In this document: piece by piece, positions 46,068 through 48,371 of the stretch
How positions within the stretch are numbered: the stretch's first letter is position 1
Layout of the letters: the number at the start of each line of letters is the position of its first letter
Source: Desulfosporosinus nitroreducens
Lineage (GTDB): Bacteria > Bacillota > Desulfitobacteriia > Desulfitobacteriales > Desulfitobacteriaceae
Assembly: GCF_023897015.1 (NCBI RefSeq)
Contig: NZ_JAMHFY010000005.1
Coordinates: 1-64,000 of the forward strand
Direction: 5' to 3'
Length of the DNA: 64,000 nt
Program-made: the position numbers and the translations under genes
The notes under the pieces: generated by a model
Seen by the model: only the letters and a program-made list of their open reading frames with translations
Database searches by the model: none
Told to the model about the DNA's origin: nothing

Positions 46068-46101
46068 TCATACTCAAAATCCACCTCTTTTTCCCAGCCC
46101 A

Positions 46102-46281
46102 GAGGGTGTGATTTTGCGGAGTGAACCCTTTAGGCAGAGTCGCGTCAATCGCGCTTGGATTTCGAAGTGCCGGCGTGGCAGAGGTTCACATGCAGAACCA
46201 CCCAGAGGTTGCCAACGCTCGCTTCGAAATCCAGCGCGATAGCGACGGCGCCTAGGGTGAGCGGAGCAACATCACACCTTC
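46102..46281. repeat. 180-bp structured element, family 2, copy 1 (between rpmB and hslO)
   Basis: The element is 180 bp with inverted ends (GGTGTGAT at 46105, ATCACACC at 46271). Inner stems are CCCT/AGGG, GTCG/CGAC, ATCGCGCT-t-GGATTTCGAAG with its complement at 46222-46240, and GCGTGGCA/TGCC-a-ACGC. A loop containing ACATGCAGAAC and CCCAGAGGT is conserved with copy 3 (47542-47721). Stem sequences differ between the copies but pairing is kept. An extra half-arm (46286-46304) follows and includes the hslO stop codon. Confidence 0.88.
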
Positions 46282-46294
46282 GCGCGCAACAACA

Positions 46295-47170
46295 TCACGC
46301 CCTCTCCCAAATTTCCCGTAACTCTTCAACATTAAACTGAAAATGTTCATTGCAAAAATGGCATACCATCTCGGCTTTTTCATCCGAGATCAGGTCTGCT
46401 ATTTCTTTTTTACCCAGGGACACCAAGGTGCCACTCAAACGTTCTTTTGAACACGTACATGTAAATCCAACCGAACGTCGCTCTAAGACATGATAAGAGA
46501 GTTTCCCCATCAGAAGACCCAATAACTCGTCCATGTTTTCACTCTGGGCTGCCATCTCACTAATACCCGCCCCTAACAGCCCAAGCTGACTTTCAATCGC
46601 TTGGATATCTTCTTCGGTTGCCCCAGGCAACGGCTGAATCAGAAATCCGCCTGCTCCAGCAACATGATAATCTTTTTCAACCAAAACCCCGAGCAACATG
46701 GCTGAAGGAATTTGTTCAGAAGATAACAAGTAATGCACTAAATCCTCGGCAATCTCCCCGCTAACCATAGGAACCGTTCCAGTATAAACCTCACCATTTT
46801 GCAAACTTCTGCTAACTGTTAACTCACCGCAACCAACCGCTGCGCCAACGTCAAGCTTACCAGAAGCCTTAAGCGGCAGGTCCACCAAAGGTTCCCGAAC
46901 ATAACCCCTTACCTCACCCTGCGCATTTCCAACAGCAACAACCCCCTCCAGAGGCCCGTCACCTAATAAGCGCAAAGTAACACTCTCTTCACCTTTGAGG
47001 GAACTGGCCAGGATAAGAGCTCCAGTCATCAACCTCCCTAACGCTGCCGTTGCCACCGGAGACATACCATGACGTCTGCGCGCTTCCTCCACCGTATCCG
47101 TTGACTTCACCAAAACCCAACGAGCATTCCCCTCAAGCATAGTACCAATCCAAAGTTCATCATGTTGCAT
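46295..47170 (-). CDS. hslO: Redox-regulated chaperone Hsp33
   Basis: This holdase chaperone is activated by oxidation of a C-terminal zinc centre. The 291-residue protein has the N-terminal Hsp33 fold (TGALILASSLKGEESVTLRLLGDGP) and the cysteines Cys238 and Cys240 (CTC) plus Cys270 and Cys273 (CHFC). Its last codons and TGA lie in a repeat arm (AGGGCGTGATG), so the C-terminus EIWERA is partly encoded by the repeat. AAGGAAG precedes the ATG. Confidence 0.94.
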   Translation of the reverse strand: MQHDELWIGTMLEGNARWVLVKSTDTVEEARRRHGMSPVATAALGRLMTGALILASSLKGEESVTLRLLGDGPLEGVVAVGNAQGEVRGYVREPLVDLPLKASGKLDVGAAVGCGELTVSRSLQNGEVYTGTVPMVSGEIAEDLVHYLLSSEQIPSAMLLGVLVEKDYHVAGAGGFLIQPLPGATEEDIQAIESQLGLLGAGISEMAAQSENMDELLGLLMGKLSYHVLERRSVGFTCTCSKERLSGTLVSLGKKEIADLISDEKAEMVCHFCNEHFQFNVEELREIWERA

Positions 47171-47362
47171 AATCGTCTTCCTTATCTGTAATCTTATTTT
47201 TCTAACACTGAAATATGATGTAACGGAACACCCAGAACAACATACACACCTAGTCTATCCCTAGCAAGCGCTCATTACACTCCCATTCAAGCCCAAACGC
47301 CGCAAGATCAAACGATTCAACCATCCCACCCGACCCTTCCAGCGCCCCTAGACCCTCCCCTA
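47171..47362. other. Gap between hslO and the family 2 repeats
   Basis: I see no gene or clear promoter in these bases. It is the start of the 541-bp hslO-thiN gap, whose remainder consists of family 2 repeat copies. Confidence 0.4.
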
Positions 47363-47510
47363 AAGGGCGTGATGCCACGGGGTGAACCCTTTAAGCAGAG
47401 TCGCTTTAATCCCGCCTAGATTTCGAATCACCAGCGTGGCACGGATATCCGTGGATGGACTGATGTCGCGATGCGATGGCGCCTTGTGAGCGGATCAACA
47501 TCAAACTCTC
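47363..47510. repeat. Degenerate family 2 element, copy 2
   Basis: The left arm (AAGGGCGTGATG ... GTGAACCCTTTAAGCAGAGTCG) and the first inner arm (CCTAGATTTCGAATCACCAG) match family 2. The matching right inner arm is missing and is replaced by CACGGATATCCGTGG. The right end (TGAGCGGATCAACATCA) is a decayed terminal arm. It looks like a rearranged 148-bp relic. Confidence 0.7.
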
Positions 47511-47541
47511 CCGTTCCCTGCCCCCGTCGACCCCAAGCCCA

Positions 47542-47721
47542 GAGGGCGTGATGTTGCGGAGCGAACCCATTAGGCAGAGTCGTGTCAACCATGCTTCGAT
47601 TTCTCGGTGCCAGAACGGCACGGGTTAACATGCAGAACAGCCCAGAGGTTTGCCGTTCTCGCCGAGAAATCAAGCATGGTAGCGACGGCGCCTTGGGTGA
47701 GCGGAGCAACATCACGCCCTC
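47542..47721. repeat. 180-bp structured element, family 2, copy 3 (downstream of thiN)
   Basis: It is the same length as copy 1. The ends GAGGGCGTGATGTTGC and GCAACATCACGCCCTC are a perfect inverted repeat. Inner stems are CCCA/TGGG, CCATGCTT-c-GATTTCTCGG (47589-47607) with CCGAGAAATCAAGCATGG (47662-47679), and AGAACGGCA/TGCCGTTCT. The thiN stop codon lies inside the right arm. Confidence 0.9.
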
Positions 47722-48371
47722 GCGCACCTGGGCATAACCACCATAACCCAGCCCTCATGAACCTCAACCACTGCCTTCTCTCCCAAAAAAACATTACTCA
47801 CACCCCGCGGACGGTCCTGACGAAGAACGCCCTTCTGAAGCGGATAATACAGCCCCTCTGTCGTGACAACCGACTCCTCTGACATCGAAATCAACGAGAG
47901 TTCCTGCCCGGATGCCCCCCAGATCTCTTCCCGCCCCTGAACAATCCACAATTCATGCTCAGGGTCAATTACGCGTATCCGATACCCTTTCTTGGCATAG
48001 GCGAGCATAAGCCCTACATTACCGAAGAAATGATCAATTCGTTTTCCAGTCGCCCCATACAGCCAAATATCCTTTTCGCCAAGCAAACGAGCCTTTTCCT
48101 CAGCCCGCAAAAGTGCCAATTCAAGATCCGTTTCATCTTTTTCACAGGGATAACGTTCAATAACACATCCCACATCTTTAAATCGATCTAAGTTTTCAGG
48201 TAAAATCGAATCCAAGTCTCCGATTATCAGATCAGGCATACGCAAAGACAGGGCAGCATAGTTTGCTCCCCCATCCGCACAAATCAAAAAATCAACCTCT
48301 TTAAGAACTTGCTTTCCCCATTCCAAATCCCAAACGCCATTTGCTAAGACAGCAATCTTGATATCAATCAC
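47712..48371 (-). CDS. thiN: Thiamine pyrophosphokinase
   Basis: This enzyme makes thiamine pyrophosphate from thiamine and ATP. The 219-residue protein contains CADGGANYAA at 31-40, IIGDLDSI, KDETDLELAL and YGATGKRIDH, all family motifs. The last residues, PRCARA, and the TGA stop are read from the end of a family 2 repeat. It follows rpe by 5 bp, as in B. subtilis. Confidence 0.93.
   Translation of the reverse strand: MIDIKIAVLANGVWDLEWGKQVLKEVDFLICADGGANYAALSLRMPDLIIGDLDSILPENLDRFKDVGCVIERYPCEKDETDLELALLRAEEKARLLGEKDIWLYGATGKRIDHFFGNVGLMLAYAKKGYRIRVIDPEHELWIVQGREEIWGASGQELSLISMSEESVVTTEGLYYPLQKGVLRQDRPRGVSNVFLGEKAVVEVHEGWVMVVMPRCARA

Follow-up and report, generated by a model that had tools for sequence, protein, structure and literature searches.

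Two intergenic hairpins of equal length lie on either side of hslO in the 64,000 nucleotides of Desulfosporosinus nitroreducens DNA analyzed here (contig NZ_JAMHFY010000005.1, positions 1–64,000; hereafter, the window), and they raise the question of what has kept their stems paired as the stem sequences changed: an RNA fold, a DNA fold, or the copying of the element itself. The features of the locus, in window coordinates, are as follows.

46102–46281, + strand: full copy c1, between rpmB (+) and hslO (−); model match 46099–46285, E 9.5e-34
46187–46209, + strand: conserved tip of c1, an exact pattern match
46290–46304, + strand: right-end remnant CAACATCACGCCCTC of a further copy, from the sequence and ORF 46295–47170
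47363–47506, + strand: third, decayed copy c3, retaining an alternative-tip remnant; blastn 47364–47441, model match 47360–47514 (E 0.016), ortholog comparison
47526–47532, + strand: left-foot tag GTCGACC 5' of c2, from the sequence; GACC stands at the left foot of 39/66 non-heliobacterial copies
47542–47721, + strand: full copy c2, between hslO (−) and thiN (−); model match 47539–47725, E 6.7e-34
47627–47649, + strand: conserved tip of c2, a pattern match with one mismatch

The two copies on which the original prediction was based each span 180 bases and share 79% identity, and the end stems and inner stems quoted in it are present in the sequence. Its estimate of about eleven compensations proved exact: the structure shared by c1 and c2 has 64 pairs, including 47 that are identical, 11 with two-sided changes that still pair, 4 with one-sided changes that still pair, and 2 that are broken in one copy. 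Folding energies are −100.7 and −108.7 kcal/mol (z −10.2 and −11.5 for c1 and c2, respectively), and none of 200 shuffled sequences folded as well as either copy. The locus also holds the decayed third copy (c3) and the right-end remnant, which the prediction did not include. The stop codons of hslO (46295–46297, − strand, inside the remnant) and thiN (47712–47714, inside the right arm of c2) both lie within element-derived DNA. The flanking proteins are Hsp33 (hslO) and thiamin pyrophosphokinase (thiN) by Pfam, and seven neighboring proteins, sdaAA and sdaAB among them, are 97–100% identical in Desulfosporosinus lacus (L054). In the two relatives L054 and L049, right-end tails (CATCACGCCCTCGCGC-like) recur in multiple copies after c2, unlike in the window (47700–47740), as if solitary ends may either multiply or be left over after deletions. 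Elsewhere in the genome (G000:C33:58400–58430), a right end belonging to this subfamily stands alone, the remainder of the hairpin being absent.

To delimit the family, 69 copies were extracted and reduced to 52 by removing near-duplicates and four copies with an alternative tip. A covariance model was built from 43 of these, picked by eye (alignment A2); the nine left out were L053 (Novosphingobium, judged a chance match), the near-duplicates L020:1413, two of L024, L069:5413, and L087, and three whose left arm was broken or foreign (L062, L066:133, and L075). Counts of copies and genomes from the model searches are lower bounds, with candidates scored per genome up to 150 in this genome and in four single-contig genomes, 36 in the order, 32 in the class, and 8 in the phylum. 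This genome contains at least 31 model matches at E ≤ 1 (at least 30 of them at E ≤ 0.02), with copies forming tandem arrays, and the four single-contig genomes contain at least 47, 61, 19, and 23. Matches were found in at least 58 of 73 genomes of the order, at least 65 of 82 of the class (at most 17 without a match), and at least 11 of 299 drawn across the phylum, of which G127, G155, and G284 are labelled only as belonging to the same phylum. With ≤3 mismatches allowed, this genome has 16 occurrences of the tip CACATGCAGNNNNNCCCAGAGGT (0 in the reversed control), and exact tip matches were present in 59 stretches of the genome collection, from Desulfosporosinus, Heliobacterium, Heliorestis, Paradesulfitobacterium, related bins, and one Novosphingobium, the last of which we took for chance and rejected as a family member.

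The original prediction had recognized no known family, and the searches agree with it. Rfam 15 gave nine matches to 4 kb of the window at lax thresholds, all under the gathering score, and seven to 20 loci, two of which (a T-box and a tRNA) exceeded the gathering score and lay outside the element; a known RNA family was thus rejected for lack of a credible match in these sequences. The family is named nowhere in the part of the literature covered (titles and opening parts of abstracts), and is apparently undescribed and unnamed. A phage or plasmid origin was also set aside: viral contigs contained no exact match to the tip or the alternative tip, and blastn with c2 found none in phage and plasmid records, a weak search for so divergent a family given its single-copy query.

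Selection on the fold is evident from the family as a whole. RNAalifold on the 43 sequences showed two-sided changes in 25 of 31 pairs. The genome-wide and cross-relative model search suggested in the original prediction yielded a family with very strong covariation: for 116 distinct copies (A3, which includes training sequences and counts identical rows once), 90.3% of 5466 cells were paired (67.0% when shuffled), two-sided changes occurred in 42 of 48 pairs, and the covariation score was 0.594, compared to 0.185 for shuffled alignments and 0.086–0.111 for structures slid by 1–3 columns. The 18 distinct copies outside model training (A4) were 87.0% paired, with a covariation of 0.641 (0.174 shuffled); both alignments were obtained by fitting to the model and are biased in its favor. 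These results strongly support selection on pairing over long times.

Stem sequences differ by subfamily, whereas the layout is common to the copies: an outer stem leads into short helices set apart by purine-rich internal loops, and a tip closes the structure. Internal loops are conserved in sequence and the stem is fast-changing. The tip holds a mini-hairpin (RCC-CAGA-GGT), the tip sequence itself being variable in G004 and G014, and some copies have about 50 extra tip bases able to fold into further hairpins (more in one copy). The comparison of subfamily architectures also omits L036, L038, and L079 and has the heliobacterial row L052 in the wrong subgroup. In a separate count of foot sequences, GACC stands at the left foot in 39 of the 66 non-heliobacterial copies, compared to 12 and 4 for control windows, in 13 of 20 from G004, and in none of 43 heliobacterial ones; the corresponding right-foot counts are 23, 18, and 0. 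For GT[CT]GAC, the left-foot counts are 29 of 66, 0 of 20, and 0 of 43. Two further structures were seen in individual loci. About 400 bases to the left of the element are also repeated in L039 and others of its subfamily, forming a larger mosaic repeat that includes an apparent second tip in the opposite orientation. In L079 and L332, the right arm is replaced by a GTCTCCAGTGGAGA hairpin that is also found upstream of an IS200-type Y1_Tnp gene in this genome (L089), which suggests insertion or fusion involving that element.

Pair types can help to distinguish an RNA fold from a DNA fold. For pairs predicted on both strands, they were counted after four subfamilies had been aligned with MAFFT; dropping groups of fewer than four left 98 of 113 sequences. 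Element helices contained 4005 Watson-Crick, 52 G-T, and 35 A-C cells, compared to 1461, 41, and 9 in the RNase P RNA of 30 genomes of the order treated alike. The G-T/A-C balance differed between the element and this single control family (Fisher p 0.008; p 0.0009 against all + strand RNase P pairs, 80 G-T and 17 A-C). Within the element, the G-T excess over A-C gave p 0.086, and two pair columns were G-U-rich (UG 47 with CG 41; GU 63 with AU 50). Folding was better for the + strand than for its complement in 109 of 113 sequences with RNA parameters and 108 of 113 with DNA parameters, and the loops are not strand-symmetric, as the helices nearly are; we read the fold as probably one of + strand DNA. 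As to the control, RNase P RNA matches were 355–467 bases long, with one of 577 bases in G021 (L282) that has a long extra arm unrelated to the model; an element insertion there was rejected, the match containing no model hit.

Divergence between individual copies provides a second measure. In copy pairs differing by ≤6%, 3 stem changes were double, 18 involved gain or loss of G-U, and 50 were one-sided changes of other kinds, compared to 12, 15, and 5 in RNase P stems, the close-pair comparisons being overlapping and not independent. The same close pairs carried about 74 changes in 84 paired columns versus 239 in unpaired columns, showing that the stems are not free. When the window was compared to two relatives, and these to each other, c1 differed by 5.6–9.4% and c2 by 1.1–3.4%, alongside 1.0–7.9% for two intergenic stretches and 1.1–3.7% for hslO; in the c3 orthologs, different inner parts were apparently lost. 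A 15-kb stretch of G074 contains three copies that are also in G073, and these differ by 1.1, 6.5, and 3.8% (intergenic DNA: 4.9%; coding DNA: 5.2%). In these alignments, orthologous copies diverge at about the rate of neighboring intergenic DNA, and copy drift combined with constrained stems fits a mobile family in which spread is limited to folding copies.

Matching loci also differ in carriage. At C44:206250, the element is present in this genome (G000) and in G011, G014 (with a foreign right arm), G019, and G023, versus 6, 8, and 12 bases between conserved flanks in G028, G035, and G008. Where this genome has a three-copy array on C21 (~900 bases), G034 has 45 bases and G010 has 44. Because non-element DNA, too, distinguishes filled from empty sites, the comparison does not separate gain from loss; inspection of flanks and empty sites by eye revealed no target-site duplication. 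Seven loci have kept the tip next to hslO. In G050, four copies (L358, L359, L360, and L361) lie inside a ~2.03-kb DDE-transposase element that is ≥99.7% identical between sites, with the hairpin between the transposase gene and one end, at least 74 bases from that end; an insertion sequence has thus carried at least one copy. No shared gene was found beside 59 loci among the 25 largest ORF clusters, and these clusters, consisting of syntenic housekeeping genes or frames running through the element, were rejected as conserved partners. Y1_Tnp genes near the tested loci were only the query genes themselves, and none of this genome's three Y1_Tnp loci contains an element copy.

Placement relative to genes is strongly polar. 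Of 116 copies, 51 have an opposing gene whose 3' end is ≤40 bases from the right foot (17 in the mirror case), genes being defined here as long rather than annotated ORFs. When each gene family was counted once (ORFs ≥200 aa, 153 copies), 30 families had their 3' end at the right foot versus 3 at the left (p 1.4e-6), and the bias weakened with distance (46 versus 27 within 300 bases). The favored arrangement places the element + strand antisense to the neighboring gene. This strong orientation bias could mean a host function. Replication-strand bias was absent in four genomes (72 of 150, with the origin assumed at base 1). In L101 (1684–1920), the right foot abuts the terminator T-run of a T-box leader, between the terminator and the ribosome-binding site of the downstream gene.

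These data bear differently on the forms of selection that could underlie the pairing. The original prediction had left the choice between an RNA fold and a cruciform DNA element; its selection on pairing is strongly supported, and of its two readings the DNA fold fits better. We prefer DNA because the few G-T pairs are nearly balanced by A-C, changes between close copies are mostly one-sided and not G-U, orthologs are no more conserved than intergenic DNA, and matching loci differ in presence and absence. Judged from sequence comparisons, a DNA fold suits the evidence better than RNA. A host structured RNA (an antisense or 3'UTR element) with its fold selected in every copy would explain the covariation in both copy sets, the better folding of the + strand (109 of 113), the fixed position at gene 3' ends, the two G-U-rich columns, and the modest G-T excess. 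We nevertheless consider it improbable, given the low G-U content relative to RNase P, the one-sided non-G-U changes between close copies, the 5.6–9.4% drift of c1 between sister species, the lack of a credible Rfam match, and the antisense orientation of the + strand relative to the neighboring gene in the favored arrangement.

The DNA-like pairing could also belong to a host element at gene ends (a supercoiling, nucleoid, or transcription boundary) that was spread by recombination and kept for its function. Placement at 3' ends with fixed polarity and the seven loci kept beside hslO agree with this, and REP sequences have been proposed to affect supercoiling, termination, and mRNA stability (PMC3733652). 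The presence/absence differences among relatives, the ortholog drift, and the class genomes without a match (at most 17 of 82) argue the other way, and we regard such an element as unlikely. The structure might also be unselected, if template switching copied palindrome arms onto each other and produced paired changes in one step. Mismatched intermediates are indeed few overall and many double changes are of the transversion type, but only 3 of 71 stem differences are double between copies ≤6% different, and arm copying would erase loop sequence, whereas the internal loops keep theirs; with close copies changing mostly on one side, we rejected arm copying as a substitute for selection and deem it very improbable.

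Among known systems, integron attC sites have a structured strand, low sequence conservation, and fixed polarity behind genes, with a base that is kept and a tip that varies. The hairpin family resembles them in the first three properties and differs in keeping its tip and varying its base. In contrast to IS200/IS605-type single-strand elements, it has no replication-strand bias. Like MITEs, it is short, non-coding, inverted-repeat, multi-copy, and absent at some matching loci, but each unit consists entirely of a single hairpin. No target-site duplication was recognized by eye, and the analysis turned up neither a parent transposon sharing its ends nor, among the 25 largest ORF clusters, a gene common to the 59 loci. 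A close parallel is with REP/BIME repeats (GTAG and CGTC superfamilies), which, according to PMC3733652, are likewise palindromic, interspersed, non-coding, and mostly downstream of genes, between convergent or unidirectional ones; the family shares the downstream location (30 gene families versus 3), and left-foot letters resembling CGTC(GACC) occur in many non-heliobacterial copies (29/66 GT[CT]GAC). Unlike REP units of 20–40 bp (PMC3733652), the unit here measures ~180 bases and includes a conserved tip and several internal loops; a repeat-flanked RAYT gene (GTAG type) was not found in this genome, whose three Y1_Tnp loci lack a copy, and passages of that paper assign CGTC repeats to five phyla, Firmicutes not being among them. 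For the terminal repeats of RAYT-like transposases, the same source gives the motif GGGGWSAS; the outer stem of C9 copies with GGGGACAC fits this motif, whereas those of other compared subfamilies do not. In this genome, GGGACA repeats surround one 258-aa Y1_Tnp gene, whose 3.3-kb locus has no model match.

Taken together, we infer that the family is probably a non-autonomous, REP/BIME-like mobile hairpin with its fold selected during propagation, a reading held with moderate confidence even though the lack of an accompanying transposase, the absence of strand bias, the copies kept in place, and the constrained stems count against it. The repeat would be interspersed and act as an oversized REP/BIME or MITE, its unit a single ~180-base hairpin with a fast-changing stem, purine-rich internal loops, and a conserved tip cap. 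The selected object would be the + strand folded as DNA, in a hairpin or cruciform, and a candidate enzyme may recognize the folded strand in trans through the loops and tip, such that folding copies would be propagated and resting copies would decay. More speculatively, and in our view rather doubtful, the family may represent a new class of DNA, mobile or recombining, in which a single long folded strand moves and docks polarly on the 3' ends of ordinary genes, like inside-out attC sites, with an enzyme reading loops and tip.

The family would illustrate that textbook covariation can arise when a mobile repeat folds as DNA, and the G-U versus A-C balance and per-copy drift are two cheap tests for distinguishing repeats of this kind from RNAs. 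If the hairpins are read by an enzyme, its discovery would reveal a new means by which repeats spread among sulfate-reducing, dehalogenating, and phototrophic Firmicutes.
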